Shown here piece after piece: positions 32,874-50,365 of a stretch of 64,000 nucleotides of DNA. Both the position numbers and the translations under genes were made by a program. The notes beneath the pieces are model-generated. The model did no database searches. It was not told the origin of the DNA and saw nothing but the letters and a program-made list of their open reading frames with translations. The DNA comes from an uncultured Halieaceae bacterium (lineage in GTDB: Bacteria; Pseudomonadota; Gammaproteobacteria; Pseudomonadales; Halieaceae): contig CAJXNM010000008.1 of NCBI GenBank assembly GCA_913057135.1, positions 1 to 64,000 on the forward strand. Reading direction: 5' to 3'. Each line of letters opens with the position of its first letter. Within the stretch, counting starts at the first letter, position 1.

Positions 32874-35105
32874 TCAGAAGGTGTAGCTAACCTGCAGCCC
32901 GTAGCTGCGCCCTTCGGCCGGGTAGCCCAGTGCTGCGCCGATACGCAATGGATCGGTGGTGGTATCGGACAAGGAGGTAAAGCGTACCGAGTTTTGGAAA
33001 TACTGCTCGTTGGTGGCGTTACGAATCAACGCCGCTACCTCCCACGACTGACCGGCACCAAAACGATAACCCGCCCGTAAATCCACCAAATTGACATCAT
33101 CTTGGCCAACAGTGGGCTCATTGAACTGGGAGTGCCACAGCTCTGACACGTAGGTCCACTGACCCATGAGATAGGCTCCGTTATCACCCATGGGGATATC
33201 GTAGTTCACACTGGTTACCACCTTGGTGTTGGGCGCATTGATCAGCTCGTTACCCGACAAATCCACCACGTTAGGGCCGCCTTCAGGGGCGTTACCAAAG
33301 GTGGTAATGAAATCGTTGTACTCACTATCGAGGAACGTTCCCGCCACCTGCAGTGTTAGGTTATCGGATACCAACGCAGCCAAGGTCAGCTCTAAGCCCG
33401 TGAGCTTGGCCGATGCAGCATTCTCGATACGAGTCGTCCCTTCAGCAAAGGTCGAGACTTGCAGGTCGTCGTAATCGTAATGGAACAACGCCGCATTCAG
33501 AGTGACCCGCTGTTGGTTCCAGCTAGACTTAAGCCCCATCTCATAACTGATCAGCTGCTCCTGGTCGAACGGTGGCGAGGTATCCAACGAGTTGGTGCCC
33601 CCCGATTTAAAGCCTTTTGTCACCGAGGCATACACCAGCATATCGTCAGAGGGTCGATACTCTATGCCCAGCTTGGGAGTGACATCGTCCCAACTGTCGC
33701 TGGTGGTACGAGAACCAAAGGGAGAGTTGAAATCTGCGGGGTTGGGAATATTTAATCCCAAAGGAATTGTGTTGGGGTCATTGAGCAGCGGGTCTGTGCT
33801 GGGCGTGAAAAACACCAAGCCCCGGGTCGAAAAGTCATCCTTCTCTTCATCGTTGTAACGCAGACCCGCAATTAAGCGCAGCTGGTCACTGACGTCGAAG
33901 TAAAGCTCGCCAAACACCGCATAGGCGGTGGTCTCATTGGTGGCAAAAATATTGAAGTTACCCCCAAAGTTAATCGACGGTAAGCCCAGCGCCTCGTCTT
34001 TGTCTTCGGTCATGTAGAAACCACCCACCATCCAATTCAGGGGTCCGTCTGAATCGGTGGTTAAACGCAGCTCTTGGGTAATCTGATCAGACTCGCGGCG
34101 GTATTGGGTGTTGGTCACAAACAGTTCGACACCGTCAGTATTGAAGCTGAAATCATCTTCAAAGTCCCGGTAGCCGGTAATCGATACCAAAGATAAGTGA
34201 TCAGCCAACTGCCATTGCAGGGTTAAGGTAGCGCCAGTGTTTTCCCATTTCTGCAGGGTATCCAACTCGTTTCGGGTAGCCCCAAAATCAGCATTGGGCA
34301 GCGCACCCAAGCGCTGACTGGTGTGCAGATCGTCTCGACGCATCACGCTCATATTGCGACCGTCTGCCTGCCCGGACTCCAGAATCAATTCGGCGCTAAA
34401 GGTATCGGATGGGCGGAAATCAACAATCGCCCGCACACCGTGGTTGTTTCGGTCGTCGATAACACTGCCACCTGCGGGCTCTAAGTCGTCGGTAAAGCCG
34501 TTGTCTTGCACCCAACGGCCCGCCAGCCGATAACCCATGTTGGGGTTAATGGCACCACCCACGGCCGCCTCCAACTCCCTACGGTCAAAATTACCCATGT
34601 AACCGCGCACATAGCCTTCGGTCTCGGCAGTGGGTTTACGGGAGATGATATTCACCACACCGGCGGTGGCATTACGGCCATAGAGGGTACCTTGGGGCCC
34701 TCGCAGCACTTCCACTCGCTCGACATCAAGAAACTGTGACAGGGCCATTTGTGGACGGCCCAAATAAACCCCGTCTTGATGGATTGCGACACTTGAGTCT
34801 TGTCCGATACCCAAGAGGTTAGAGCCGACACCACGAATAAACACCTGCCCTTCGCCGCCTGCTCGACTGAATGACATGCTGGGGTCTGCCAGAACCAGAC
34901 TCTGCACATCATTAATGTCTAGCGCTTGTATACGATCCCCCGAGTACGCTGCAATGGCCATTGCCGTGTCTTGCAAGCTCGACTCGCGCTTCTCGGCGGT
35001 GACAATGATCTCTTCCAGTACCCTTGGAGCGCCGTTCTGTGCCAACGCTGGTAAGGCGGCCACCACAGCCAACATCACTGCGCTTTGCTTGTAATAGTGT
35101 TTCAT
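32874..35105 (-). CDS. TonB-dependent outer-membrane receptor
   Basis: 743 aa from ATG 35105 (GAGG 8 bases upstream, signal peptide 'SAVMLAVVAALPALAQ'). The longer ORF to 35219 has an untypical N-terminus and is not used. The plug domain is seen in 'EEIIVTAEKRESSLQDT' to 'RGPQGTLYGRNATAGVVNIISRKPT', and a 22-strand barrel ends in 'YGLQVSYTF'. It belongs to the CirA-like/steroid- and xenobiotic-associated group. It would import the substrate of the linked hydantoinase cluster. It lies 145 bp after the VOC gene, so it may be cotranscribed or have its own promoter. Confidence 0.93.
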   Translation of the reverse strand: MKHYYKQSAVMLAVVAALPALAQNGAPRVLEEIIVTAEKRESSLQDTAMAIAAYSGDRIQALDINDVQSLVLADPSMSFSRAGGEGQVFIRGVGSNLLGIGQDSSVAIHQDGVYLGRPQMALSQFLDVERVEVLRGPQGTLYGRNATAGVVNIISRKPTAETEGYVRGYMGNFDRRELEAAVGGAINPNMGYRLAGRWVQDNGFTDDLEPAGGSVIDDRNNHGVRAIVDFRPSDTFSAELILESGQADGRNMSVMRRDDLHTSQRLGALPNADFGATRNELDTLQKWENTGATLTLQWQLADHLSLVSITGYRDFEDDFSFNTDGVELFVTNTQYRRESDQITQELRLTTDSDGPLNWMVGGFYMTEDKDEALGLPSINFGGNFNIFATNETTAYAVFGELYFDVSDQLRLIAGLRYNDEEKDDFSTRGLVFFTPSTDPLLNDPNTIPLGLNIPNPADFNSPFGSRTTSDSWDDVTPKLGIEYRPSDDMLVYASVTKGFKSGGTNSLDTSPPFDQEQLISYEMGLKSSWNQQRVTLNAALFHYDYDDLQVSTFAEGTTRIENAASAKLTGLELTLAALVSDNLTLQVAGTFLDSEYNDFITTFGNAPEGGPNVVDLSGNELINAPNTKVVTSVNYDIPMGDNGAYLMGQWTYVSELWHSQFNEPTVGQDDVNLVDLRAGYRFGAGQSWEVAALIRNATNEQYFQNSVRFTSLSDTTTDPLRIGAALGYPAEGRSYGLQVSYTF

Positions 35106-35250: not shown

Positions 35251-36084
35251 TCACCCCCCCAGTTCGCGAAAAATAAGCTCAACACCTAAGACCCTCGAGG
35301 CGGGTATGCGCGCCTCATCGTCGGCAATCACCGCGCTGTCTGGTAACGATGCAATGCAGCGGGCTAAATCCATAACACCCCACTCGATGGCGCTGATCGG
35401 CGAGGTCAATTCGGCGAGCGACCCAGCATCGGCAGACACCGGCGGCTCCGACTTTGCGGCGGGTTGAACAGGTCTGTGCGTAGAGCTGCTCGCGTACCAG
35501 GGCAGCCCATCACTCGTTTCGATGGTCGCGGGGAGCACCTTGGGATTGCCGTGTAATGCCAACAAACACGCCGCCGTATTGCGATGCTGGCAAACATCCG
35601 GGTGATACAGTTCGTCGGAGTTTTCATGCTGCACCCATCCCACAAGCAGGGTGTTAACGGGCTGCGGATCGGCGGCAAACCACCTAAAGCCCACCTCCTC
35701 ACCGCCACCGTAGTGCAGGCGGCGGCGGGCGGTTTGCACCGCCGTCACGCCTATTCCCTTGTCACTCAACTGCGTTTGCTCGGCTTGTGCATCGATACAC
35801 GACAAAATCACAATGCGAATCCCCGGGGGCATACCCAAGTACGGGGCAAGGTGATGCTCGGCGGTTGCCCCCGACACCGCTGTTAACTCCAAATAGCCAT
35901 TGCCCACCATAACGTGGGCACTGTGCTGAACACCGTGGCTATCACCGGCGCTGGTCATCAATTGGGCGGGTTCTGTTACCTGAAACCCAAGGCCACGAAA
36001 GGCCGCAACCAATGCCCCAATGTCCGAGCCCACCAGACCTAGATGATCGATCGGGAAACGGGACATCAAGGCCTGCGAATTCAC
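35251..36084 (-). CDS. VOC/glyoxalase-like domain protein
   Basis: 277 aa from GTG 36084, which overlaps the preceding MFS stop (GTGA) and has GAGG 7 bases upstream; ATG 36066 is an alternative. The 403-aa frame is rejected because its first 126 residues lie inside the MFS gene and look like random translation. 'IDHLGLVGSDIGALVAAFRGLGFQVTEP' and later 'RRLHYGGGEEVGFRWF' resemble the Glyoxalase_3/VOC fold. Members bind metals in ring-opening, isomerising or lyase reactions; the substrate is unknown. Confidence 0.72.
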   Translation of the reverse strand: MNSQALMSRFPIDHLGLVGSDIGALVAAFRGLGFQVTEPAQLMTSAGDSHGVQHSAHVMVGNGYLELTAVSGATAEHHLAPYLGMPPGIRIVILSCIDAQAEQTQLSDKGIGVTAVQTARRRLHYGGGEEVGFRWFAADPQPVNTLLVGWVQHENSDELYHPDVCQHRNTAACLLALHGNPKVLPATIETSDGLPWYASSSTHRPVQPAAKSEPPVSADAGSLAELTSPISAIEWGVMDLARCIASLPDSAVIADDEARIPASRVLGVELIFRELGG

Positions 36085-37412
36085 TGGGCCGCCTCGAGCA
36101 AGCCGGTTTGTAAGCGCCGGAACGGCTTCAAGACCGCGTACAGAAGCAGGCAGGAGGCCAGTCCAGCCAAGAGCGAGATAAGCCCCATGGCGTGGTGTAG
36201 TCGCTGCGGATCCGCAAACACATAATCGGTTACCAGCGCCGTGGCAGTACCGCCGAAACCAATACCCGTGAGATTCACCACGAACAAGTACACCGCCGAT
36301 ACTTGGGCGCGCATTCGTGGTGGCGTGATGACCTGTAACGATGAAGCGGCGGGGCCGAAAGGAAAACTGGCGAAGAATAACAGCGGTGCAAACAGCCACA
36401 GGGCAGCACTGGCCGTTGGCATGAGTGGCGCTGCAATGGCACAGGGAGTAAGGCACACACAACCCACCAGCGCCGAGGTAATGGGCGCGCTGCTATCCCC
36501 CCGCTTGGCCAAGAAATCGCTAAACCAACCGCCGGCAATGACGCCAGCGGCACCGACCGCAGCGGTCATGCCCCCCAACTTAATACCAATGTCAGCGCGC
36601 TCTAGGCCATGGATACGAATAAACAACTCGGGGGCCCATGCCAGCACGGCGTTAAACAGCAAAGTCACCATGGCAAAGCCGCTAAAGTGCAGTAGGTAGA
36701 CGCGGCGATTGGCGCCCAACCACCCCAAGATTTGTGAATTGCTAAGTGCAGCACCAGCGTCGGTGCCGGCCAAGCTGACACGCTTGGGTTCAGGCAGGGT
36801 CAGTACCCACAGTGCCACCAGTAACCCGGGTAACCCAATAATCACGAAGGTGGCCTGCCATGAACTGAGGTGACCCAAGATAGGCAGGGTCAGACCACCG
36901 GCGGCCTCGAGACCGCTCACCAACACACCGCCGATAATGAAAGAGGCGCCAATGCCCAGGAACACCGCGCTGGAATACACCCCGATGGCGCGCCCCATAC
37001 CGCTGACACCAAAACGGTCGGCGATGATGGAATAGGCGGCGGGTGATAACGACGCTTCACCGACACCCACCACAATGCGAGCCAAAAATAGTTGTCCAAA
37101 ACTGCGCGCCATACCGCTGACCACCGTGGCCAGTGACCACAGGGCAATGCCCGCGGCAATTAAGCGCGTGCGGTTACGGTTATCCGCAAGTTTGGCAATG
37201 GGTATACCCAGCAAGGTGTAGAACAGCGCAAAAGCCAAACCGTGTAGCAGGCTAAATGCCGTATCCGTGAGGCCCAAATCACGCTTTATGGGCCCCACCA
37301 TCAACGACAGAATTTGCCGATCGATGTAGGACAGAAAATACGCAACGGTCAGCACGAACAACGAGTAGCCCGCAAGACCCGTGATACCACCCCTGGGCTT
37401 AGTCGTTGCCAT
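36081..37412 (-). CDS. MFS transporter, spinster-like
   Basis: 443 aa from ATG 37412 (GGAG 6-7 bases upstream). An ATG four codons earlier overlaps the hyuB stop. About 12 helices, 'LSYIDRQILSLMVGPIKRDLGLTDTAFSLLHG' at helix 1-2 and 'ARIVVGVGEASLSPAAYSIIADRF' at helix 4-5, the usual spinster-type pattern. It is coupled by overlaps to the VOC and hyuB genes, so it probably carries the substrate of this pathway across the inner membrane. Confidence 0.88.
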   Translation of the reverse strand: MATTKPRGGITGLAGYSLFVLTVAYFLSYIDRQILSLMVGPIKRDLGLTDTAFSLLHGLAFALFYTLLGIPIAKLADNRNRTRLIAAGIALWSLATVVSGMARSFGQLFLARIVVGVGEASLSPAAYSIIADRFGVSGMGRAIGVYSSAVFLGIGASFIIGGVLVSGLEAAGGLTLPILGHLSSWQATFVIIGLPGLLVALWVLTLPEPKRVSLAGTDAGAALSNSQILGWLGANRRVYLLHFSGFAMVTLLFNAVLAWAPELFIRIHGLERADIGIKLGGMTAAVGAAGVIAGGWFSDFLAKRGDSSAPITSALVGCVCLTPCAIAAPLMPTASAALWLFAPLLFFASFPFGPAASSLQVITPPRMRAQVSAVYLFVVNLTGIGFGGTATALVTDYVFADPQRLHHAMGLISLLAGLASCLLLYAVLKPFRRLQTGLLEAAQ

Positions 37413-37423
37413 TGGGTTCTCCA

Positions 37424-39307
37424 TTAGGGCTTACTTCCCTGCTGCCGCCACTGGGTCGTGGCTTCCCAATCAACACCTTGTTGGTCGGCGGTAAACACCA
37501 CCCCATAGTCCCGTTGGGCATCCTGTGCCGAGATCAATCCATCGCAGTAATCGCGCCAGACCGCGGCGGGATCACGCTGTTTCGGGTCGCCGTAGCCAGC
37601 GCCAGAAACCAATTTGAGCTCTAGGCGGTCACCCGGGGCAAAACGGTGGTTGGAAATTTTCGCGGGCAGGGTCTCGGTCTCGCCATTAGCACGGTGATGC
37701 AAAATGGCTCCTGCCCGGCCATGACAGCCGCCGAATAACCCCCGGGGCGGATCGATCGATCGGTTGTCACCGGTTGAACTCGCCTGTAGCGGTGCATTGA
37801 ACAGCCACATCCGGGTGGCACCGAGACCCCCTCGCCAGCGACCCGGTGCCGGCGGATCCGCCAGCAACTCATAACACTCACAGCGCATAGGCGCTGTTAA
37901 TTCCACTTCTTCAATGGGTGTGTTGCGCGTGTTGGCCATCAGATTATCGATGGCGTCTAAACCATCGCTGCCATAGCTCGCGCCGTAGGCACCTTCATTG
38001 ACCTCTACCGATACCCAGTAGTCATCACCATCGGCCTCCGATGATTCCCCCGCATAGACAAAGCAGCACACATTCGCGGAATTACCCGCGGTGACTTGCT
38101 CGGGCATCACAGTGGCTAGGGCTTGCATGATCTGATCCGGGATACGGTTAATCTGGGTGAAGCGGGCCTCACACCCCCTAGGGGGTGTCGGATTAAACAG
38201 GCTGCCCAAGGGGGCAATGACGTGCACCGGCCGGAATACGCCGTCGTTTTGGGGAACCCCCCTGCCATCGCCGGTTTCCGACAACAGCAAACTACGAATG
38301 GCAAAATTAGCGGTAGGCAAGACACTGCCCTCGAAGGGACAGTTGAAACCGGTGCTGACCTGCTCATTCGAACCGGTAAGATCAATGTAAATGTCGCTAC
38401 CCGAAACCACGACACGGGTGGCAATGCGCAAAGGCTGGCCCCAGTGCTTACCGTCATCCTCGAGCCATGCCGTAGGTGCATCGTAGACACCATCAGGCAG
38501 AGCAGCGATGCGAGCACGCATTAAGCGCTCGCTATAGTCCATGGCCGCGTCAGCGGCACTCATCACCTGATCTAAGCCGTATTTTTGTGCCAAGGCCACA
38601 AAACGTTCGCGGCCCAATTCACAACAGGCAATCATAGCTTCCAGGTCACCGGTATTGGCCTCGGGGGTACGCACATTGCTCATGAGTAATGACCACACCC
38701 CGGCAATACGGCCATTGCGATCACAGATCTTGACCGCATCAATCACTTGGCCCTCGGCGAAGTAGTCGGGTACATCCACCGAAAAGCCGGGATTAGCGGC
38801 GCCAATATCCACCATGTGACCGGTACAACCCGCAAAGCCCACATGCATACCCGCCACAAAAATAGGGACCAAGACACCGTAATCGGGGCTGTGGGAGGCG
38901 CCGTGATAAGGGTGGTTGTGTAGGTACACGTCACCTTCTTGGTAGCGCCCATGATGGAGACGGTCGATACCCCGCACATAAGCAGGCAAGGAGCCACAGT
39001 GCATGGGGGTAGAATCACTCTCGCAAATTTGTCTGCCAAACCGATCGAGAAGACCGGCACCGATATCCCGCGACTCGCGCATAATGCTGGAGTAGGCCAT
39101 GCGAAACAGATGCTCTGCCATTTCGTGGGCAATGGCGGCAATTCCGCCGCCAATGACCTGTCGGCTCACCGGGTCGACATCGACGGTTTGCCAGTAGCGC
39201 TCAACGTCGGCACCAATGGCGGTAGAGGCCGACAAGGCATGCAGCGCTTCTGGATTGAGCGCTTGCGGGTTGAGCACTTCAGAGTTGAGGGTACCGTCAA
39301 GCAACAT
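37424..39307 (-). CDS. Hydantoinase B/oxoprolinase family protein
   Basis: 627 aa from ATG 39307 with GGAGAGG upstream, overlapping hyuA by 11 bp; the longer ORF to 39406 is disregarded. Family motifs are 'AHEMAEHLFRMAYSSIMRESRDIGAGLLDRFGRQI', 'HNHPYHGASHSPDYGVLVPIF', 'GFAGCTGHMVDIG' and 'GRWRGGLGATRMW'. With HyuA it forms an ATP-dependent enzyme class that opens lactam or imide rings (N-methylhydantoin, 5-oxoproline) or carboxylates ketones. The exact substrate cannot be read. Confidence 0.92.
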   Translation of the reverse strand: MLLDGTLNSEVLNPQALNPEALHALSASTAIGADVERYWQTVDVDPVSRQVIGGGIAAIAHEMAEHLFRMAYSSIMRESRDIGAGLLDRFGRQICESDSTPMHCGSLPAYVRGIDRLHHGRYQEGDVYLHNHPYHGASHSPDYGVLVPIFVAGMHVGFAGCTGHMVDIGAANPGFSVDVPDYFAEGQVIDAVKICDRNGRIAGVWSLLMSNVRTPEANTGDLEAMIACCELGRERFVALAQKYGLDQVMSAADAAMDYSERLMRARIAALPDGVYDAPTAWLEDDGKHWGQPLRIATRVVVSGSDIYIDLTGSNEQVSTGFNCPFEGSVLPTANFAIRSLLLSETGDGRGVPQNDGVFRPVHVIAPLGSLFNPTPPRGCEARFTQINRIPDQIMQALATVMPEQVTAGNSANVCCFVYAGESSEADGDDYWVSVEVNEGAYGASYGSDGLDAIDNLMANTRNTPIEEVELTAPMRCECYELLADPPAPGRWRGGLGATRMWLFNAPLQASSTGDNRSIDPPRGLFGGCHGRAGAILHHRANGETETLPAKISNHRFAPGDRLELKLVSGAGYGDPKQRDPAAVWRDYCDGLISAQDAQRDYGVVFTADQQGVDWEATTQWRQQGSKP

Positions 39308-41387
39308 GGGCAACCCTCTCCTGCAGTTCAATTTGCAAATGACCCAGGGGATGCACCACCACACTGTAGCCTGGGGGCACCACCGTCGTTGTGTCATCTT
39401 GCTCAATGACCACCGGTCCTGTCATGCGGGTGCCCGGGGCCAGCTGACCTCGCGCTACAAATTGAGTGGCAACACAGTCAAGCTGCCCTGCCACACGGAA
39501 TCGAGCGGGCTGCTGCTGACTGTCTGAACATCCTCCTGAAGCAGACAGCGGCGCCGAGGCAGGGGCTCGTATACGCCCGGTGGCGGTTACCCCAAGATTC
39601 ACGAGCATCACGGGGCTGTCGGGGAACGCCCGGTGGTGAGCCCGCTGGTGCGCCCCGTGAAAGGCGTCGGCAACACCCTGGCACCAGTCTGGGTCGCCAA
39701 AATTGGCCGATACCGGTACCTGCAGCTCATACCCTTGCCCCACATAACGGCAATCGGCGCTGTAACTGATCACGATGTCTTCGGACCCAAAGCCGTCCTT
39801 GTGAAGAGGAGCCACCGCCGTGGCGGCTAACTCGTCGGCCACTGCTTGAATTCGCGGTTGGTCGGCACTGGATAAGGGCTGCCACAGGGTGGCTTGGCGG
39901 GTGTACTTCATATCGGTAGCCAACAGCCCACCTGCAGCACCCACGCCCGCGGCAGGTGGCACAATCACCTTGGGCATCGATAACTCTTGTGCCACCGCCA
40001 CCGCGAAAGCGGCACCGGCACCACCGTAGGCCACCAGTGCAAACTCCCTTGGATCTAAACCCCGGGCAACACTGTTCACCCGCACCGACTCGACCATGCT
40101 GTGAACCGCCAGCTGGTAGATACCCGCCGCCGCTTGATACACCGTTAACCCAAGGGGCGTGGCAATGTGCTGCTCAATGGCAGCAACCGCTAACTCCGGG
40201 TCAATATCTAAACCAGAATTACGCAGGGCGTCGGCCCGGTACCACCCTAGTACCACCAACGCATCGGTTACGGTGGGTTGGCTGCCACCGCGGTTGTAGC
40301 AGGCAGGACCCGGGTCGGCGCCGGCGCTCTGAGGGCCGACACGGAAAGCACCGCCCTCGTCGATCCAGGCAATAGAGCCACCGCCCGCACCAATGGTGTC
40401 AATGTCACACATGGGAACCATGGCGTCGTAGCCACCAATTTGGGTATCGAGCAGCGCGCGCATACGCACCTGCCCTGCGGGCGCCACACCGATATCCGCA
40501 GAGGTACCACCCACATCTAACGTAATGACATGGTCCGTCTTGGTCTCGATACCCGCCTGCACGCCGGCAATCAATGCACCTACAGGCCCCGACAACAGCA
40601 AACTCACCGGACGCCGACTGGCTTCATCGACCCCAACCACACCACCTGCGGAGGTCATCAGACAGAGCTCGGCGGCATAACCCTCGGTGCTCAGTGCCTT
40701 GCTAAAACGCTGTAAATAACGACTAGTGCCAGGGCCCACATAGGCGTTCAGCGCCGTGGTCGACATGCGCTCGTACTCCCGATACAGGGGTACGATGTCG
40801 TGACTCGCCGACACGAACACCTCGGGCCATAGACGGTTGATCTCCGCCACAATGTGTTGCTCATGCACTGGATTGAGATAGGCGTGCAGACAACACACCG
40901 CGATAGCCGTGATCTCACCCCTGTCACGCCACGCTTGCACCGTCTGCTCGACCGCTGCCACATCGAGGGCTTCAATTTCTTTACCCGAAGGCGCTTCAAT
41001 GCGACCGGCAACCCCCACCCGATACTGCCGCGCCACCAGTGGATAGTGTTGACGCGTAACCACCTGATTGTGGGCAAAGTTACAGGGCCGGTTTTTACGG
41101 CCGATGTGCAGAATGTCCCGGAAGCCTGCATTGGTAATGAGGCCTACCTTGGCGCCATTACGCTCTAAAAGAATATTGGTTGCGACCGTGGTGCCATGAA
41201 GAATGAGGTCGATCTCGGCCAGTGATGCACCTGCTTTGGCGCACAGCTCGAGCACCCCTTCTATGCCAGCCCGAGCCGGATCATCGGGGGTGGATGCGCG
41301 CTTGTGAATCACGCGGCGCTGGGACGCGTCATCCCAGAACACCAGATCAGTGAACGTGCCACCAATATCGATGCCAATGCGCTTCAA
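39297..41387 (-). CDS. Hydantoinase A/oxoprolinase family protein
   Basis: About 697 aa from TTG 41387, where GGGGG lies 7 bases upstream and the protein opens 'LKRIGIDIGGTFTDLVFWD', the family start. The ATG at 41414 lies inside a palindromic operator and is less likely. The ASKHA nucleotide fold is shown by 'IDIGGTFTD', 'HGTTVATNILLERNGAK' and 'TLDVGGTSADIG'. It uses ATP together with HyuB. First gene of the hyuAB-MFS-VOC operon, under a 20-bp operator. Confidence 0.9.
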   Translation of the reverse strand: MKRIGIDIGGTFTDLVFWDDASQRRVIHKRASTPDDPARAGIEGVLELCAKAGASLAEIDLILHGTTVATNILLERNGAKVGLITNAGFRDILHIGRKNRPCNFAHNQVVTRQHYPLVARQYRVGVAGRIEAPSGKEIEALDVAAVEQTVQAWRDRGEITAIAVCCLHAYLNPVHEQHIVAEINRLWPEVFVSASHDIVPLYREYERMSTTALNAYVGPGTSRYLQRFSKALSTEGYAAELCLMTSAGGVVGVDEASRRPVSLLLSGPVGALIAGVQAGIETKTDHVITLDVGGTSADIGVAPAGQVRMRALLDTQIGGYDAMVPMCDIDTIGAGGGSIAWIDEGGAFRVGPQSAGADPGPACYNRGGSQPTVTDALVVLGWYRADALRNSGLDIDPELAVAAIEQHIATPLGLTVYQAAAGIYQLAVHSMVESVRVNSVARGLDPREFALVAYGGAGAAFAVAVAQELSMPKVIVPPAAGVGAAGGLLATDMKYTRQATLWQPLSSADQPRIQAVADELAATAVAPLHKDGFGSEDIVISYSADCRYVGQGYELQVPVSANFGDPDWCQGVADAFHGAHQRAHHRAFPDSPVMLVNLGVTATGRIRAPASAPLSASGGCSDSQQQPARFRVAGQLDCVATQFVARGQLAPGTRMTGPVVIEQDDTTTVVPPGYSVVVHPLGHLQIELQERVAHVA

Positions 41388-41410
41388 GCAATACCCCCGA
41401 CGTTGCAAAC

Positions 41411-41430
41411 ACATTTGGTATACCAAATGT
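41411..41430. promoter_or_regulatory. Perfect 20-bp operator upstream of hyuA
   Basis: ACATTTGGTATACCAAATGT is self-complementary over all 20 bases. Its core TGGTATACCA recurs at 42342-42351. It lies 24 bp upstream of the hyuA TTG start and between that gene and the GntR regulator gene, which fits a FadR-type GntR binding site. Confidence 0.82.
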
Positions 41431-41589
41431 TGTTGGGCAGCACAAGCTCAAAGGTATAAGAGAACATGCCAAGAGCAAGGACTTATGGGTTTAAATGGGA
41501 GATTCTGGGGGTTCTGGAAAGCCCAGTGCAAGACTGTAGTAACCGGCAGTAACCGCGACCACAACAGCTATACTCAACCGGGCTGGCGC

Positions 41590-42234
41590 TTATTTTGACG
41601 GCGCAGTACTGGCACTGATGGCGCGCCCCGAAAGAATATGTGCCCGCATCGCCGAAGCGGCCCAGTCTTCGTCACCGGCCTCTATGGCCTCCAATAGGGT
41701 CACATGCTGACGCAGTGAGCGCTGTAACTGCGCGACGTCGTAATGACTGAAGGCCTGGCTTAGCACCCTAAGATCGGTGGTGGACTTCAACAGCCCCAAC
41801 ACCCGCTGATTACCGGTCAGCTGGGCCACCGTCAGGTGAAATCGATGGTCCAACTCAATGTAAGCGGGCACATCAGGAGACTCTGAAGCCAGCGCTAGCG
41901 CCATTTCGTCGACCAACGTACGCAGGGCGGGGATAGCTTGCCCGCCCGCGTTGCGTGCAGCCAGGGAAGCACAGAATGACTCGAGTACTACCCCGACCTC
42001 GAACACCTCGCGCAGCTCTTGCGATGACAACTGCGCCACGACAACACCCCGCCGCGGCCGACTTTCCACCAAGCCCTCGGCGGTGAGCCGGCGCAATGCT
42101 TCGCGCACCGGGGTTCGACTTACCGCCAATTCGGCACAAAGATGGCGCTCCACCAACCGGGCGCCGGGGGCTAACTGGCCGGTACAAATGCGCCGGTAAA
42201 TTTCGGTATACGCTTTTTCTGCCGAGTCACTCAC
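41590..42234 (-). CDS. GntR-family regulator, FCD domain
   Basis: 214 aa, GTG start after GAGAT. Winged helix at about residues 8-75 ('LVERHLCAELAVSRTPVREALRRLTAEGLVESRPRRGVVVA'), then an all-helical FCD domain with probable metal ligands in 'ELDHRFHL', 'RQHVTLLEAIE' and 'AMRAHILSG'. FCD proteins usually sense an organic acid and derepress. It lies between two palindromes sharing one core and is very likely the regulator of the hyu operon, the PrpD gene and itself. Confidence 0.93.
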   Translation of the reverse strand: MSDSAEKAYTEIYRRICTGQLAPGARLVERHLCAELAVSRTPVREALRRLTAEGLVESRPRRGVVVAQLSSQELREVFEVGVVLESFCASLAARNAGGQAIPALRTLVDEMALALASESPDVPAYIELDHRFHLTVAQLTGNQRVLGLLKSTTDLRVLSQAFSHYDVAQLQRSLRQHVTLLEAIEAGDEDWAASAMRAHILSGRAISASTAPSK

Positions 42235-42340
42235 GTATTTATCTCATTGATAGCGCCCCTGTACAGCGCCTTGCTAAGTGGGTCTCTGTACATTGAAGCA
42301 CGACCAAGCCCTGAAGCAACATTTATGGCGTCTTGATCTT

Positions 42341-42352
42341 ATGGTATACCAT
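42341..42352. promoter_or_regulatory. Operator between GntR gene and PrpD gene
   Basis: ATGGTATACCAT is a 12-bp perfect palindrome with the same TGGTATACCA core as the hyuA operator. It lies 38 bp before the PrpD start and 107 bp before the regulator start, so it can control both divergent genes. Confidence 0.8.
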
Positions 42353-42389
42353 TTGACCTTAACGACATGCAGCTGGAGGCACCACAACC

Positions 42390-43757
42390 ATGGGTCAGCT
42401 CACTGAATCGATCATCGACTTTATCACCGGCACAGGGCTGGACAGCCCCCCGGCCGAGGCAATCACCCTCGCCCAGCGAGGATTCATCGATACCCTCGGG
42501 GTGATGATTGCAGGGCGCAATAGCGAGGTCACTCGGGCCATTCAAACCTACGCCAATCGTGTGGGTCATAGCGCAGGGGCGGCCCGTGTGCTGCTCGCCA
42601 ACGATACCAGCTCGGTACAAAACGCAGCTCTGGTGGGCACCACCGCGGCACACGCCCTCGACTACGACGACTACGCTTACAGCAACCATGTATCAGCACT
42701 GATGGTCCCGGCCATCATTGCGGACGGGGAGCGCTTGAATGCCAGCGGCTATGACATGTTGGCGGCCTATATTGCAGGTTTCGAGGTGTGGGGAACCGTA
42801 TTCAAACGGGAGCCACAGCATTTGCACAGCAAGGGTTGGCACCCCACAGGGGTGTTCGGGCCGATAGGGGTCGCAGCTGCCTTGTGCCGACTGCGGCGAC
42901 TGAGTAACGATGAGGCACGCAACGCCCTGGGTCTTGCCTGCGCCAGCGGCGGTGGCGTTATGGACAATTTCGGCAGTCATGCAAAACCCTGGCAAGGGGG
43001 TCGAGCTGCCGAGGCGGGGGTGGTTGCTACAACACTGGCAAGCTGCGGCATGACCGCTGGAGAACATGCCCTCGATGGTGACGGCGGTCTAATGGCGGCA
43101 CTATCGCCACTGGGTAACGTTGATCGCACGACGCCCGCCGCCATGCAGGGTGGCTACTGGCTCAGTGCGGGTCCTGCCCTTAACTTGAAAATGCACCCCA
43201 CCGTCGGCGCGTCACAACGCAGCATCGATGCAGCCCTGCAGCTGTATCAGGATCACAGACCCAGCCCCGCGCTCATTGCACGTATTGTTATTCGGGTCAG
43301 CGAAAAACATGCCGCCGTTATGCGCTTGCATCGACCCACTTCCGCGTCAGAGGCCCGGTTCAGTGCCGAGTTCGGGGTGGCCGCGGCGCTAGTTGCCGGA
43401 CGGGTAGGCCTAACCGAACTTGACGATGCCTTCGTGCAACGGCCCGATGTACAGGCGCTAATTGGGCGCTGTGTGATTGAAACGGGCCCCGACGATGACC
43501 CTAGCTATCCGGTGGGCGCCAAGTTCGACACGGTAACACTCGAGCTAACAGACGGCACCGTTGTCACCAGCGACCCTGTGTACCGGTTCCGCGGCCACGG
43601 CGATAACCCCATGTCTGAAGCAGAGCTAAAAGAGAAATTTACTACCTGCGCGGGCACTGCCATTGCCAAAGAGCAGACCCTTGAACTGTGGGACTGTTTA
43701 CAAACTCTCCCGGCTTTGTCATCGGCACGGGACTTGCCGACTTTACGTTACCTGTAA
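42390..43757 (+). CDS. MmgE/PrpD family protein
   Basis: 455 aa, normal for 2-methylcitrate dehydratase-like and cis-aconitate decarboxylase-like enzymes. GGAGG lies about 10 bases upstream of the ATG. Family traits: 'RGFIDTLGVMIAG', 'AAHALDYDDYAYSNHVSA', 'AYIAGFEVWGTVFK', 'KGWHPTGVFGPIGVAAALCRL' and 'GWH..G' type motifs. Substrates are hydroxy-tricarboxylates or related acids; here it is divergent from the GntR gene and shares its operator, so it probably acts on a product of the hyu pathway. It converges with the amidase gene (6 bp gap). Confidence 0.9.
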   Translation: MGQLTESIIDFITGTGLDSPPAEAITLAQRGFIDTLGVMIAGRNSEVTRAIQTYANRVGHSAGAARVLLANDTSSVQNAALVGTTAAHALDYDDYAYSNHVSALMVPAIIADGERLNASGYDMLAAYIAGFEVWGTVFKREPQHLHSKGWHPTGVFGPIGVAAALCRLRRLSNDEARNALGLACASGGGVMDNFGSHAKPWQGGRAAEAGVVATTLASCGMTAGEHALDGDGGLMAALSPLGNVDRTTPAAMQGGYWLSAGPALNLKMHPTVGASQRSIDAALQLYQDHRPSPALIARIVIRVSEKHAAVMRLHRPTSASEARFSAEFGVAAALVAGRVGLTELDDAFVQRPDVQALIGRCVIETGPDDDPSYPVGAKFDTVTLELTDGTVVTSDPVYRFRGHGDNPMSEAELKEKFTTCAGTAIAKEQTLELWDCLQTLPALSSARDLPTLRYL

Positions 43758-43763
43758 GCGAGG

Positions 43764-45071
43764 TTAGCTAGGGCTCTCACTGGCGCTATTGAGGGTGGGC
43801 ATAACAGCGCAAGCCCTTAAGACCGCATCGTCCTCGCCCCGTGCCGCGACTAACTGCAGGCCCACCGGCATGCCCGAGGTCTTGTCAACGGCGGCAGGCC
43901 ACGTCGCGCAGGGCACATGGAGCGCCGTGAACAGACGATTGAATACCGCAAGACCATTACCCTCACCCCGAATGGGCGCCACGTCAGGTACCGCTGGGCA
44001 CAGGAGCACGTCGTAGTCAGCAGCAGTGGTATCGAAAACCACGCGGGCAGCGGCAAGACGGTCTCGGGCGCGGCAAATCTCACGCACGCTCAGATGAGCG
44101 GAGCGGGCTAAACCTGTGGCCACCCCTTCATCGGGGGTGCCATCAGCACTGACAGAGTCGGGGTAGACCGAAACACCGCCCTCACCCCACATGACCACGT
44201 CTTGCAAGGCGTTAAGGTCAAGGTCAGTGAAAGGGTCCTGTACCTCGCTAATTTGATGTCCGGCTTTTTGCAGTAACGCTGCGGTATCGTTAAACACCCG
44301 ATGTATGAGCGGCGCGGCATCGGACCAATATCGGGTCGGGTAAATACCCATACGCAGGGGTTGCCCGGTAGAGATGGGGTTCGTCGTTGCCGCACCGCAG
44401 GCCACCGCCGCTTGCCGCAGCAGCGCGGCGCTATCGGCCATCAAACCCACGGTATCTAAAGAGGGGGCAAACGGCTTCATACCTTCGGTGGAAATAACAC
44501 CCCAAGTGGGTTTGTAGCCGTAAATGCCACAGTAGGCTGCGGGCCGCAGTGTGGAGCCTCCGGTTTGAGAGCCTACGGTTAGGGGCACTAAACCCGCTGC
44601 TACCGCGGCGGCGGATCCCGTCGATGAACCCCCGGGGGAACGGGCTGGATTCTTGGGGTGCACGGTGGTGGGTTCACGACCCATTCCCGCGAACTCCACC
44701 GTGGTTACCTTGCCCAGCAGCACAGCACCCGCAGCACGCAATGCACGCACAACCGCCGCATCGACCTTCGGGTGATGACCCGCGTAAGCGAGTGCGTTGT
44801 ATTGGGTGGGTAGCGCCTCGGTAAGGAAAATATCTTTTACTGCAAACGGTACTCCGTGCAAGGGACCCACAGGGCGCCCATGCTGCGAGAAATATCGATC
44901 GAGGGCGCGAGCCTCAGCCAGTGCATGCTCATGATTCACGGAAACAAAGCTAGCAATGCCCCCATCGAGGCGATCAATACGCTCGAGAAAGAGCTTAGCG
45001 GCCTGCTCGGCCGATACGGCGCCGCTGGCAAGCTGTTCGATCATGGCGCTATGAGTGGAACCGTCACGCAT
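43764..45071 (-). CDS. Amidase signature family hydrolase
   Basis: 435 aa. Ser-cisSer-Lys triad is visible: K79 ('FAVKD'), S150 ('GGSSTGS') and nucleophile S173 ('SQTGGSTLRPA'). The family hydrolyses carboxamides, including aryl and acyl amides, and in GatA releases ammonia; there is no GatB or GatC nearby, so it is not the tRNA amidotransferase. It starts 22 bp after the thioesterase stop and is probably the last gene of the acyl-CoA operon. It might instead act on an amide made in the hydantoinase cluster nearby. Confidence 0.9.
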   Translation of the reverse strand: MRDGSTHSAMIEQLASGAVSAEQAAKLFLERIDRLDGGIASFVSVNHEHALAEARALDRYFSQHGRPVGPLHGVPFAVKDIFLTEALPTQYNALAYAGHHPKVDAAVVRALRAAGAVLLGKVTTVEFAGMGREPTTVHPKNPARSPGGSSTGSAAAVAAGLVPLTVGSQTGGSTLRPAAYCGIYGYKPTWGVISTEGMKPFAPSLDTVGLMADSAALLRQAAVACGAATTNPISTGQPLRMGIYPTRYWSDAAPLIHRVFNDTAALLQKAGHQISEVQDPFTDLDLNALQDVVMWGEGGVSVYPDSVSADGTPDEGVATGLARSAHLSVREICRARDRLAAARVVFDTTAADYDVLLCPAVPDVAPIRGEGNGLAVFNRLFTALHVPCATWPAAVDKTSGMPVGLQLVAARGEDDAVLRACAVMPTLNSASESPS

Positions 45072-45093: not shown

Positions 45094-45531
45094 TCACTCG
45101 ACCAGCAACCGACTCACAGCCTCACGAATAGGCGCTGGAATATCCGCCGACTGGTCAACACGCCTATCAACAAAGGCATGTACAAACCGACCGGTGGCCC
45201 GGCTGCTGTCATCCCCAGATAAGTACACCGCCACTTCCCATGCAATAGAGCGAGCCCCCATGCGGGTGACCCGAAGCCCCAAGTCAAGCTCTGCGGGGTG
45301 ACTGACTGGCGCAAAATAATCGCAGCCCGATGACACCACATAGCCCACGATGGTGGCCGATGCGGGGTCAAAGCCACCGTGTTCAATGTAATAGCGGTTC
45401 ACCGCTGTATCGAACCAGCTGTAGTACACCACGTTATTACAGTGACCAAAAATATCGTTATCGGCCCAACGGGTGGCTAGGGAATAAAAAAATGGACAGG
45501 CACTTCGGGGCAGTGGCTGCGGGCGACTCAT
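45094..45531 (-). CDS. Hotdog-fold acyl-CoA thioesterase (4HBT/YbgC-like)
   Basis: 145 aa. 'TRWADNDIFGHCNNVVYYSWFDTA' with Asp in D24/D26 is the 4HBT active-site pattern. It hydrolyses acyl- or aryl-CoA. It overlaps the iron alcohol dehydrogenase gene by 4 bp (ATGA) and has GGGAG upstream, so it is cotranslated. Confidence 0.87.
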   Translation of the reverse strand: MSRPQPLPRSACPFFYSLATRWADNDIFGHCNNVVYYSWFDTAVNRYYIEHGGFDPASATIVGYVVSSGCDYFAPVSHPAELDLGLRVTRMGARSIAWEVAVYLSGDDSSRATGRFVHAFVDRRVDQSADIPAPIREAVSRLLVE

Positions 45532-46676
45532 GCGGGTTTCTCCCAGGCTTGTTGATACAGGGCTAACGCGGTGGGCTCATCAATAGCCACGGGATTGTTC
45601 ACCAAAAGACGCTGCTGCGCCATGGCATCGGCGGCTAGTGTGGGTAGTGCGCTTTCGGGTACACCCGTATCGGCTAAGTTGTTGGGCAGCCCCGAGTCGG
45701 CAATGAGCTGCTCACACCAATCAATAAGGCCTTGAGCACTTGGGGTAGCGCCAGGAAGTACACTCGCCAATTGGGCGTAATCGTCGGCGACCGCAACGGC
45801 GTTATATGCCAGCACACTGGGCAACATCAGTGAGTTGCTGAGTCCGTGGGGAATATGAAAGTGGCCGCCCAAGGGATAGGCCAAGGCATGCACGGCGGCA
45901 ACCGGTGCATTGGCGAAGGCTTGCCCCGCAAAAAAAGCACCCAGCAACATGGACTCCCGCGCTGCCACGTCTTGGCCATCGTTTAGCACACGGCGGCAGT
46001 TACCACCGAGTAATTCAAGGGCGCGCAGTGCCAATGCGTTGGAAATGGGGTTTTTGCGCAACCGCGAGGTGAACGCCTCAATGGCGTGCACCATGGCATC
46101 GATACCGGTCATAGCGGTGATCGCAGGGGGTAGCCTCAGGGTGAGCGCCGCATCGAGCACCGCCACATCGGGCAGTAAGGTGGCCGAGCTCACACCGGCT
46201 TTTGTGGTAGCGCCGGTGGTAATGACCGCCACCGGGGTGGCCTCGGAACCGGTACCAGCGGTGGTGGGCACCAGTGCTAAGGGCAGCCGACCACCCTGCA
46301 CCTGATCGACCCCATAAATGGCCGATAGGGGTTGCTGGTTTTTCGCCAGTACCGCGACCACTTTGGCGACGTCCATGGAGCTACCCCCACCGACCGCAAT
46401 GACACCATCACAGCCGTGAACTCGCAGGGTATTGAGGGCCGATTCAACCACCGCCTCCGAGGGATCAGCCTCGATACCATCGAAAAGATGGCAGGCGTCG
46501 CAATGGCTTGCTAAGGCATCGACCACCGGCTGAATGAGCCCCAGCGCCACCAGCCCGGCATCGCTTACCAGTAGCGGCTTATGCATACCCAAGCGTTGGC
46601 AAACCGGGCCAAGATCGTGTGCGGCACCTGCCCCAACGATGACCTGGGGTACGGTGTTAAAACTGAATCCGGTCAT
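45528..46676 (-). CDS. Iron-containing alcohol dehydrogenase
   Basis: 382 aa, group III alcohol dehydrogenase. NAD(P) site 'GGGSSMDVAKVV' and 'TTAGTGSEATPVAV'; iron ligands in 'GIDAMVHAIEAFTS' and 'AVHALAYPLGGHFHIPHGLSN'. Oxidises or reduces alcohol/aldehyde; substrate unknown. GAGG lies upstream of the ATG. Confidence 0.93.
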   Translation of the reverse strand: MTGFSFNTVPQVIVGAGAAHDLGPVCQRLGMHKPLLVSDAGLVALGLIQPVVDALASHCDACHLFDGIEADPSEAVVESALNTLRVHGCDGVIAVGGGSSMDVAKVVAVLAKNQQPLSAIYGVDQVQGGRLPLALVPTTAGTGSEATPVAVITTGATTKAGVSSATLLPDVAVLDAALTLRLPPAITAMTGIDAMVHAIEAFTSRLRKNPISNALALRALELLGGNCRRVLNDGQDVAARESMLLGAFFAGQAFANAPVAAVHALAYPLGGHFHIPHGLSNSLMLPSVLAYNAVAVADDYAQLASVLPGATPSAQGLIDWCEQLIADSGLPNNLADTGVPESALPTLAADAMAQQRLLVNNPVAIDEPTALALYQQAWEKPA

Positions 46677-46711
46677 GGCAAACCTCGCATCGTGTGCTGT
46701 CGTTACAGCCC

Positions 46712-47692
46712 TTAAAAGGTAAAGATAACTTTACCGCGAGCGCGGCGCTCCATCATGGCGGCGTAGCCTTCCTCGTACTGCTCGATGGGGAACACATCGG
46801 TCACAACTGGCTTGATTTTACCCTCCTCAAACCACTGCCACAGGGTCTGGGTGTTCTGCTTGTGGGCCTCGGGCTCTTCGGTCATGAACCGACCCCAGAA
46901 CACGCCGACAATGCTGCAACCCTTGAGCAGGGTTAAGTTCAGTGGAATTTTCGGGATGGGGCCGTTGGCAAAACCCACCACCAAAAACCGGCCATTCCAG
47001 GCCATGCCGCGCAGGGCCTGCTCGGAGAAATCCCCCCCAACCGGGTCGTACACGACATCGACGCCCCGGCCATCGGTAATGGCTTTAATGCGATCTTTCA
47101 AGGACTCGGTGTTGTAGTTGATGACCTCGTCGGCTCCCAATTGCTTGCACAATTCCAGCTTTTCATCGCTGCTGGCAGCGGCAATCACCCGCGCCCCTAG
47201 GGCCTTGCCCAATTCCACCGCGGTGCTACCCACACCACCGGCGGCACCGAGCACTAGCAGGGTCTCGCCGGGTTGGATGTTCGCACGCTGTACCAGTGCA
47301 TGGTACGAGGTGAAATAGGTCACCCCGATGCCCGCCGCTTCAACCATGGAGAGGGCCTTAGGTTTGGGCAACAGCGCCTGCTCGTTCACGACAGAGCTTT
47401 CACAAAAGCCACTGGCAATGCCCATTTGAATCACTTCATCACCCACCGACCATCGAGTAACAGCGCTGCCCACTGCCTCGACCACACCGGCGCACTCGCC
47501 GCCGGGCACAAAGGGTAAGTCGGGTTGGAATTGATACTTGCCCTGAATAATCAATACATCGGGGAAGTTAAGACCCGCCGCCGCCACTTTAATACGCACA
47601 TCATTGGGCCCTAACTCGGGCAGCTGCCAATCGTTGGTTAGCTCAAGTTTGTCGGGCAAGCCCAACTCTTTACACACTAAGGCGCGGGTCAT
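46712..47692 (-). CDS. NADPH:quinone oxidoreductase family, zinc-free MDR
   Basis: 326 aa from ATG 47692, which overlaps the thiolase stop by 4 bp with GAGG upstream; the ORF to 47740 is rejected. '[29 protein letters not shown]' and the Rossmann '[30 protein letters not shown]' mark quinone-oxidoreductase-like MDR enzymes; zinc ligands of alcohol dehydrogenases are absent. Likely an enoyl or quinone reductase. Confidence 0.93.
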
Positions 47693-48876
47693 GAGAACAC
47701 CTCGAACAGGCCCGCGGCGCCCATACCACCACCAACGCACATGGTGATGACCACGTATTTTACACCCCGGCGTCGGCCCTCGAGCAGAGCGTGACCGATC
47801 ATGCGCGAACCGCTCATACCGTAGGGATGGCCCACGGCAATGGCACCGCCATTCACATTCAATTTATCGTTATCGATGCCTAATTGATCGCGGCAGTACA
47901 GCACTTGTACGGCAAAGGCCTCGTTGAGTTCCCACAGGCCAATGTCATCGACACTCAGGCCGTGCTGCTTTAATAGCTTAGGGACTGCAAAAACAGGACC
48001 GATACCCATTTCATCGGGTTCACAACCCGCCACCGCCATGCCGCGGTATGCGCCTAAAGGCTCAAGCCCCAGCTGACTGGCCAGTGAGGCCTCCATGACC
48101 ACCTGAGCCGAGGCACCATCGGATAGCTGCGACGCGTTACCCGCGGTGATGGTACCCCCATCGACCACGGTCTTAAGGCTTTGTACGCCCTCTAAAGTTG
48201 AGGCCCGCACACCTTCATCTTGGCTAATGGTAGCTTCGACCGTGGACTGCTCACCGGTTTCTTTGTCCCAAACAATGCGCTGTGCGGTAACGGGCACCAG
48301 CTCATCCGCAAAGCGGCCCGCCGCGTAGGCGGCAGCGGTGCGCTCTTGAGACTGCAAGCCGTACTCGTCCATAACATCGCGGCTCATGCCATAACGCTGC
48401 GCAACCACTTCAGCGGTCTGCAGCATGGGCATGTAAATATCCTTATGCATGGCAACAAGTTGCTCATCCACAAGATGGTGCATGTTCATGTGCTGGTTCT
48501 GCACCAGCGAAATAGACTCAACACCACCGCCGACAACTACCGACATACCGTCGTACATGATTTGCTTTGCGGCTGTGGCCACCGCCATCAGACCCGACGA
48601 GCACTGCCGATCGATGGTCATACCCGCCACGGTCACGGGCAAGCCGCCTCGTAACGCAATGTTGCGGGCCACGTTAAGTGACTGGGTACCCTGGGGCATG
48701 GCACAGCCTATGATGCAGTCGTCGACTCGCTCGGGTTCGATACCAGCGCGCTCAACCGCAGCGCGTACCGCGTGGCCACCTAGGGTGGGTGCGGGTGTGT
48801 TGTTAAAGGTGCCTTTATAGGCTTTACCGATAGGGGTTCTTGCAGTGGAAACAATGACCGCTTCACGTTGTGACAT
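47689..48876 (-). CDS. Acetyl-CoA acyltransferase (thiolase)
   Basis: 395 aa. Nucleophile C92 in 'DRQCSSGLM', His in '[10 protein letters not shown]' and second Cys in '[14 protein letters not shown]'. It cleaves 3-oxoacyl-CoA in beta-oxidation, or condenses acetyl-CoA. AAGGAG precedes the ATG. It lies 18 bp after the SDR gene. Confidence 0.95.
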
Positions 48877-48894
48877 AACAGCTCCTTGTGGGCC

Positions 48895-49815
48895 TTAGCC
48901 CTGAAGATCGATACCCAAGGCGGCCGAAGCCTGCCCCAGCATTTTGAATGTTTGCTCAAATCCCGCCTGCAACTGACGCTCACCGCCGTTGGCGATTTGC
49001 TCCCAGTGCGCCGCCAAACCTTCAGGGGTTTGCTGGTCTTCTGGAAGGTACATGCCCTCGGTCTCAACAATCTTAGCGACCGCGTAGGCGCCCGCGCCCG
49101 CCGCCAAGACAGTGCGATTGGGGGCGTTTTCAGACACTAGAAACAACACCGCAGGGGTGACCGTAGCGGGGGTTAGTAGCTCGAAGGCCTGCTCGGGTAT
49201 GAGCCCTTCGGTCATACGCGTCCCCGCGGTGGGAGCTAGGGCATTGGTGTGAATATTGTTTTTGGCACCCTCAATGGCCAAGGTATTCATAAAGCCCACC
49301 AAACCCAGCTTGGCTGCGCCGTAGTTGGTTTGACCAAAGTTGCCGTATAACCCCGACGACGACGAGGTCATCACAATACGCCCATACTCTTGGTTACGCA
49401 TGATGTCCCACACTGCCTTGGTACAGTAAACGCTGCCCATCAAGTGAACATCCACCACCGTTTGGAAATCCGAGAGGGCCATTTTGCTGAAGCTTTTATC
49501 CCGCAAAATGCCTGCGTTATTCACCAGAATATCTACTCGCCCCCAACGGGCCATGGTCTGCTCGACCATATCGGCCACCTGATCCGGGTCGGCTACATTG
49601 GCAGGATGGGCCATAGCTTCGCCACCGGCGGCCTCAATCTCTGCCACTACCGCAAGGGCTGCTTCCGTGTTGGCGCCCTCGCCCGCCACTGAGCCGCCCA
49701 AATCATTCACCACCACCTTGGCACCCCGTTGGGCTAATGCCAGAGCGTGACTTTTACCTAATCCACCCCCTGCACCAGTGACAATGGCCACTCTTCCGTC
49801 GTAACGAATATCCAT
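48895..49815 (-). CDS. SDR (R)-3-hydroxyacyl-CoA dehydrogenase-like, MFE-2 type
   Basis: 306 aa from ATG 49815 with strong AGGAGG; the longer ORF to 49881 is not used. NAD site 'VAIVTGAGGGLGKSHALALA', 'NNAGILRDKSFSKM' and catalytic Ser-Tyr-Lys ('SSSSGLYGNFGQTNYGAAK'). The C-terminal extension and the 'RDKSF' motif match the dehydrogenase part of peroxisomal MFE-2 (17-beta-HSD4-like). It follows the MaoC gene. Confidence 0.9.
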   Translation of the reverse strand: MDIRYDGRVAIVTGAGGGLGKSHALALAQRGAKVVVNDLGGSVAGEGANTEAALAVVAEIEAAGGEAMAHPANVADPDQVADMVEQTMARWGRVDILVNNAGILRDKSFSKMALSDFQTVVDVHLMGSVYCTKAVWDIMRNQEYGRIVMTSSSSGLYGNFGQTNYGAAKLGLVGFMNTLAIEGAKNNIHTNALAPTAGTRMTEGLIPEQAFELLTPATVTPAVLFLVSENAPNRTVLAAGAGAYAVAKIVETEGMYLPEDQQTPEGLAAHWEQIANGGERQLQAGFEQTFKMLGQASAALGIDLQG

Positions 49816-49873
49816 GTTGCTACCTCCTGTTAAATGCCGCCCTGTGTGACTACCTGTATGACTGTCCTTGTAA

Positions 49874-50341
49874 TCAGCCACCGGTAATGCTCATACCCAA
49901 CCACTCGGCGACCAGTGCCGGTGTTTCCTCACCTTCAATTTCAACGGTGATGGTCTGGGTCATCAGAAAGCGGTTTGCATCTTTTTGCTCAACAGCGGTC
50001 AGTTGAACATGGGCGCGCACACGCTTGCCGGCGCGTACGGGGTTTAAAAATCGGACTTTGTTCAGACCGTAGTTCACGCCCATCACCAAACCCTTGGGAT
50101 GAACACCGATGCCCTCGGTGAGCTTCACCAGCATCGATAAGGTCAAGAAACCGTGGGCAATGGTGCCCCCAAAGGGGGTTTTCGCCGCCGCCTCTTCATT
50201 AATGTGGATGAACTGGTGATCTTCCGTGCAATCGGCAAACTGGTTAATACGCTCTTGATCGAGGGTGACCCAATCGGACACACCTAAATCAGTGCCTGCC
50301 ATGGCCAGAAGTTCTTCTGGCGGTACCGTTTTAATAGCCAT
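49874..50341 (-). CDS. MaoC-family (R)-specific enoyl-CoA hydratase
   Basis: 155 aa. 'INQFADCTEDHQFIHINEEAAAKTPFGGTIAHGFLTLSML' carries the Asp-His hydratase motif. It hydrates enoyl-CoA to (R)-3-hydroxyacyl-CoA. AAGGAG lies upstream. It is 24 bp after the acyl-CoA dehydrogenase gene. Confidence 0.95.
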   Translation of the reverse strand: MAIKTVPPEELLAMAGTDLGVSDWVTLDQERINQFADCTEDHQFIHINEEAAAKTPFGGTIAHGFLTLSMLVKLTEGIGVHPKGLVMGVNYGLNKVRFLNPVRAGKRVRAHVQLTAVEQKDANRFLMTQTITVEIEGEETPALVAEWLGMSITGG

Positions 50342-50365
50342 AAGGGCTCCTTGTTATGGGATTGA

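Follow-up and report, generated by a model that had tools for sequence, protein, structure and literature searches.

Two matching palindromes around a GntR/FCD regulator gene and the probable local regulon they define in a Halieaceae bacterium

The 64,000-nucleotide stretch of DNA analysed here (the window) comes from an uncultured Halieaceae bacterium and carries gntR, a gene for a GntR/FCD regulator, with a perfect palindrome on either side of it. We propose, at a probability of about 0.82, that the regulator is a local, self-controlled transcriptional repressor of the adjoining hyu operon, of a divergent MmgE/PrpD-superfamily gene and of itself. That it controls the nearby gene set for uptake and breakdown is very probable, because a related species keeps the same arrangement. 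The locus is well supported as a local regulon of an ordinary kind, under a regulator whose class is known, and leaves the understanding of the FadR/FCD class unchanged. It is a rare accessory catabolic locus whose operator and gene set are now testable; its substrate is possibly of interest, and the regulator-operator pair offers a reporter for substrate screening.

Two palindromes on either side of gntR

Both palindromes described in the earlier note are present where it had placed them (Table 1). They share the exact core TGGTATACCA (41416-41425 and 42342-42351), the two copies starting 926 bp apart with one on each side of gntR. The core reads TGGT-AT-ACCA, and its GT-to-AC distance of 2 nt lies within the 2-3 nt that define the TKGT/ACMA box of the FadR subfamily. 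Operator 1 is within the 202-bp gap that runs from the gntR stop to hyuA, and 28 bp separate the end of its core from the TTG start of hyuA. This start is common to the window and the homologous locus L020; the longest hyuA reading frame, which begins at 41426 and would swallow operator 1, was rejected because the resemblance to the L020 protein starts with the TTG at 41387. Operator 2 is within the 155-bp gap between the divergent gntR and MmgE/PrpD genes, its centre lying about 43 bp away from where the MmgE/PrpD gene starts, as against about 112 bp for gntR. As it is nearer to the MmgE/PrpD gene, self-control is the weakest link of the proposed model.

Table 1. Features of the gntR locus, in coordinates of the window.
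Feature	Coordinates	Strand	Basis or remark
TonB-dependent receptor, start inferred	32874..35105	-	PF00593, PF07715
Glyoxalase-like protein, start inferred	35251..36066	-	PF13468; same position in L117, relative in L118
MFS transporter	36081..37424	-	PF07690
hyuB-like, hydantoinase B/oxoprolinase family, start inferred	37424..39307	-	PF02538, 456 bits
hyuA-like, hydantoinase/oxoprolinase A family, TTG start 41387	39297..41387	-	PF01968, PF05378, PF19278
Operator 1, perfect 20-bp palindrome ACATTTGGTATACCAAATGT	41411..41430	.	TTTGGTATACCAAATGT kept ahead of hyuA in L020
gntR, GntR winged-helix + FCD, 214 aa, GTG start	41590..42234	-	PF00392, PF07729
Operator 2, perfect 12-bp palindrome ATGGTATACCAT	42341..42352	.	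L020 carries TTGTATACCAT at the matching place
MmgE/PrpD-superfamily protein, divergent from gntR	42390..43757	+	PF03972, PF19305
Amidase-family protein, convergent to MmgE/PrpD gene	43764..45071	-	PF01425

A homologue scan of 84,980 species genomes gave 79 loci. The best of these was L020, from an uncultured Luminiphilus MAG and the same locus as that of genome G010; L117 continues its cluster. The gene order in L020 is that of the window, with amidase, MmgE/PrpD, gntR, hyuA, hyuB and MFS transporter genes, followed in L117 by the glyoxalase and TonB receptor genes. Identities between the window and L020 are 50% for the amidase, 64% for the MmgE/PrpD protein, 63% for gntR, 60.8% for hyuA, 72% for hyuB and 67.5% for the MFS transporter, and the TonB receptor, at the same place in L117, is 73-75.5% identical. 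L020 carries TTTTTGGTATACCAAATGT ahead of hyuA and GATTGTATACCATTTGA in the divergent gap, the intergenic DNA being otherwise diverged. The first core is unchanged and the second has one mismatch (TTGTATACCA), while the conserved symmetric stretch at hyuA reaches 17 bp. Although gntR and hyuA are separated by 202 bp in the window and by about 57 bp in L020, the site stands ahead of hyuA in both, 17 bp from the start codon in L020. In G010 the sole copy of the core in the genome is the one at the regulator locus, ahead of hyuA.

Distances as short as these, to hyuA in both genomes and to the MmgE/PrpD gene in the window, suit blocking. A scan for sigma-70 promoters from 41350 to 42450 found none; one terminator-like match came up, at the level of shuffled sequence. 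With no such promoter found around either site, overlap of the operators with RNA polymerase is something we infer. FCD regulators acting as activators exist, and the regulator could activate, or both activate and repress, through the same sites; given how near the operators lie to the start codons, we consider this unlikely. Two sites around one gene might also be joined by the regulator in a DNA loop. At 10.5 bp per turn, the core spacing amounts to about 88.2 turns in the window (926 bp) and about 69.7 in L020 (732 bp). The two thus share no helical phase, and looping seems to us a rather poor prospect. The palindromes could instead be a shared promoter element, since TG-N-TATA is found inside the core and TGGTATACC resembles an extended -10. 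Such an element would recur at other genes, whereas the genome has the core nowhere but here; what is conserved is symmetric, over as much as 17 bp at hyuA in L020, and in other families, too, homologous regulators are preceded by the core. A promoter element is on these grounds very improbable, and we read the palindromes as operators of a repressor.

The regulator and the genes it may control

The regulator has the two domains of the FadR/FCD class, an N-terminal winged helix-turn-helix (PF00392, 75.7 bits with a cut-off of 27) and a C-terminal FCD domain (PF07729, 94.5 bits with a cut-off of 24.3). A profile search of the assembly with PF07729 detected a single FCD protein, which is this regulator, and a search with PF00392 detected three GntR-type HTH proteins in all, the regulator included. 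As the sole FCD protein detected, and with sites that fit the consensus of its class, the regulator is the natural owner of both palindromes, in agreement with the earlier note. The sites could belong to one of the two further GntR-type HTH proteins, or to a protein of another family, since other families can bind TATA-centred palindromes; but only one FCD protein was found and the sites travel with the regulator across genomes, which leaves another owner little chance.

FCD domains hold a metal through an Asp or Asn and three His residues. The candidate residues D129, H133, H177 and H199 of the regulator align with the D, H, H and H of PDB 3fms, from which we infer a metal site. H133 and H177 do not vary among the eight aligned relatives, and position 129 is occupied by Asp in both Luminiphilus proteins but by Asn in the six that are more distant. 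The helix residues S39, R40 and R44 are likewise invariant in 8/8. R30, which we take to be HTH position 28 of the FadR-subfamily survey, mapped through Arg35 of E. coli FadR, is Arg in seven of the eight; the remaining one, G146, has Gly and lacks a core at its regulator. This correspondence is suggestive (n = 8). In the survey, Arg at HTH position 28 is tied to G at the K position of the consensus (PMC4494728).

By position and conserved order, the controlled set probably comprises gntR, the MmgE/PrpD gene and the hyuA-hyuB-MFS-glyoxalase genes. From hyuB onwards, the order MFS transporter, glyoxalase-like protein, TonB receptor is identical in both Luminiphilus genomes. The operon probably extends to the TonB receptor gene (to 32874), because the place of this gene is kept in G010 and the cluster is shared in a further genome, G173; the gap of about 145 bp upstream of the receptor gene is without an operator. 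The placement of the sites for control of the hyu operon, the PrpD gene and the regulator, as first described, is borne out and is conserved in L020, but the extent then given to the regulon was too narrow, the MFS transporter, glyoxalase and TonB receptor genes probably being included. The amidase gene is a conserved neighbour with no operator of its own in the window or L020. Upstream of the amidase gene, the minus strand of the window at 45094-51616 carries a run of thioesterase, iron-type alcohol dehydrogenase, zinc-type dehydrogenase, thiolase, short-chain dehydrogenase, MaoC and acyl-CoA dehydrogenase genes. At 31451-32677 on the plus strand is a gene for another MFS transporter, weakly Tet-efflux-like and far under the cut-offs of those models.

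The name PrpD, used earlier for the divergent gene, finds no support as a function. The equivalog models for 2-methylcitrate dehydratase PrpD score far under their cut-offs (NF042438, 28.9 of 950 bits; NF006943, 22.7 of 575; TIGR02330, 20.5 of 458), and the nearest solved relatives are other enzymes, iminodisuccinate epimerase and cis-aconitate decarboxylase (PDB 2hp3, 7bra and others; E 3.4e-42 and 3e-37). The predicted protein resembles these more than it does 2-methylcitrate dehydratase, but it is distant from them, so that their reaction is not transferable. For both HyuA and HyuB the best NCBIfam match is caprolactamase CapAB, which has the same ATP-dependent hydantoinase/oxoprolinase A and B families. 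Assignment as CapAB was rejected, and its substrate is not transferable, because the scores of 511.9 and 235 bits (NF050156/NF050157) are far under the cut-offs of 1000 each. Read at the family level, HyuAB would open the ring of a compound resembling a lactam or hydantoin.

In the repressor model, a dimer of the regulator would bind TGGTATACCA through its two winged helices, occupying operator 1 ahead of hyuA and operator 2 between gntR and the MmgE/PrpD gene. When substrate is lacking, the hyuA-hyuB-MFS-glyoxalase operon (with the TonB receptor gene, if it belongs), the MmgE/PrpD gene and gntR would be blocked. A small carboxylate made from the substrate and held at the putative FCD metal site (D129, H133, H177, H199) may then loosen the repressor, and its release would allow a lactam- or hydantoin-like nitrogen compound to be taken up and ring-opened.

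Core frequency and occurrence in other genomes

The earlier note had held that a core occurring at random frequency would speak against its reading, and genome-wide this is the frequency that we find. The assembly searched (2,857,914 bases, or 2.86 Mb; 97.7% complete) has exactly two copies of TGGTATACCA, both at the gntR locus, versus about two expected by an estimate from base composition, and the core read backward, as a control pattern, has three. In a comparison set of 55 other genomes of the same genus without a regulator match at E<=1e-28, 29 copies are spread over 22 genomes; seven of the 55 have two copies each, on separate contigs or, in G030, 517 kb apart, and none has them adjacent. 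When both intergenic stretches (202 and 155 bp) were dinucleotide-shuffled in 20,000 trials, the shuffled gaps shared a perfect 10-bp palindrome in two trials and an 8-bp palindrome in 60, and shuffling of the first gap produced a perfect 20-bp palindrome in two trials. Since rarity is absent genome-wide, the evidence is the placement and the conservation of the core, and these, with the shuffle controls, make palindromes arisen by chance scarcely credible in spite of the random frequency across the genome.

The description of the regulon as self-contained stands for the exact core, of which there is no third copy in the genome, and not for the one-mismatch scan, which gave 17 places for WTGGTATACCAW, 16 of them inside an open reading frame when frames of >=80 aa are called mechanically and the other intergenic, and left two weak candidates for extra regulon sites. 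The first (G000:C2:9081-9092, L106; TTTGTATACCAA) is inside the longest reading frame, but about 80 bp short of where an acyl-CoA dehydrogenase probably starts. Of 12 chosen genomes, 11 gave an ortholog of this enzyme, G010 and G173 among them, and conservation of the site was rejected, T.GT..AC.A or GTATAC being present in the 200 bp upstream of 0/11. The second (G000:C6:56621-56632, L111, site 1501-1512; TAGGTATACCAT) is intergenic, ahead of a TonB receptor gene and with a gene of opposite direction on its other side, this receptor being unrelated to that of the window (25% identical over 470 aa).

The regulator has an ortholog at E<=1e-28 in four of 140 Halieaceae-level genomes, the window genome included, and among the same 140 hyuA at >=61% identity is confined to the window genome and G010. 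The MmgE/PrpD protein was found at E<=1e-80 only in the window genome among 390 order-level genomes, an evenly drawn sample in which the MmgE/PrpD protein of G010 did not appear. In a set of 96 homologue loci, the 31,680 bases around and upstream of the regulator start contain TKGTATACMA 10 times and the 846,566 others four times, an enrichment of about 67-fold; the ten sites fall in seven loci, the other 89 having none near the regulator start. In three loci that are beta-proteobacterial or unassigned (L027, L032 and L033), pairs of TKGTATACMA stand 75-76 bp apart upstream of FCD regulators that are 35-37% identical, and in L033 the regulator is followed by a FAD-linked oxidase.

G173 belongs to another Halieaceae genus, and its regulator is 39% identical. 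The sole copy of the core in this genome lies 52 bp ahead of the TonB receptor gene, which is followed on one strand by genes for an MFS transporter, a glyoxalase, gntR and a class-III aminotransferase. A gap of about 0.5 kb between the MFS and glyoxalase genes makes a single transcript uncertain. The MFS transporter and TonB receptor of this locus (L118, G173:C5:33000-48000) are 58% and 45% identical to those of the window. Besides the core at 13181-13202, L118 has a second GTATAC palindrome at about 13246, some 63 bp away and further upstream. In G074 the sole core of the genome is 128 bp ahead of the regulator gene; this genome was chosen for the core already seen at its locus and is not an unbiased case. 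The arrangement does not fit in G146 (regulator 38% identical), where two copies of the core are both far from the regulator and a different palindrome, TTGTACACAA, lies upstream of it, inside a mechanically called reading frame without a Pfam match. Tentatively, one might see in the TonB receptor, MFS transporter, glyoxalase-like protein, FCD regulator and TGGTATACCA a portable module for uptake and control that is shared by Halieaceae genera and coupled to different enzymes, HyuAB and the MmgE/PrpD protein in the two Luminiphilus genomes and the class-III aminotransferase in G173, and that might handle, by way of a dedicated outer-membrane receptor, a marine nitrogen compound that is lactam- or hydantoin-like and undescribed.

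Comparison with known regulator systems

In the literature the TGGTATACCA string turns up, but by titles nowhere in work on bacterial regulators, and searches joining GntR/FCD, hydantoinase and operator, or GntR with GGTATACC, found nothing; one that joined GntR and hydantoinase with TonB-dependent genes in an operon led to a Yersinia genome paper. The best NCBIfam match of the regulator is PhnR_burk (TIGR03338), an assignment that was rejected at 124.9 bits with a cut-off of 271.5; no phosphonate genes are found among the annotated neighbours of gntR. NanR is an FCD regulator that acts on direct repeats of TGGTATAW, as quoted in the FadR-subfamily survey (PMC4494728). The half-site TGGTATA is the same here and the NCBIfam NanR model matches the regulator, but the sites are palindromes, not direct repeats, and the match of 68.1 bits is well below the cut-off of 260, so the regulator was not taken for NanR. 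There are no sialate genes among the annotated neighbours of gntR. A loose parallel for the enzymes is the opine region of a Ti plasmid, where hydantoinase/oxoprolinase A/B genes are linked with an mmgE gene and the regulators described are LysR, not GntR (PMC6733357).

The closest likeness is to the FadR subfamily as a whole. The word hydantoin is absent from the main text of the survey, and none of its ortholog groups examined shows the present gene set (PMC4494728). The consensus given there is TKGT/ACMA with a GT-to-AC distance that is usually 3 and sometimes 2 nt, the 2-nt centre being listed for GntR, HpxS, HypR, MdcY, PrpR and UxuR. The window has the same pair of domains and the same palindromic operator, placed, as there, in a divergent gap with the regulator gene and slightly nearer to the structural gene. 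It differs from the survey's arrangement in having, behind the regulator gene, another operator as partner to the one in the gap (PMC4494728).
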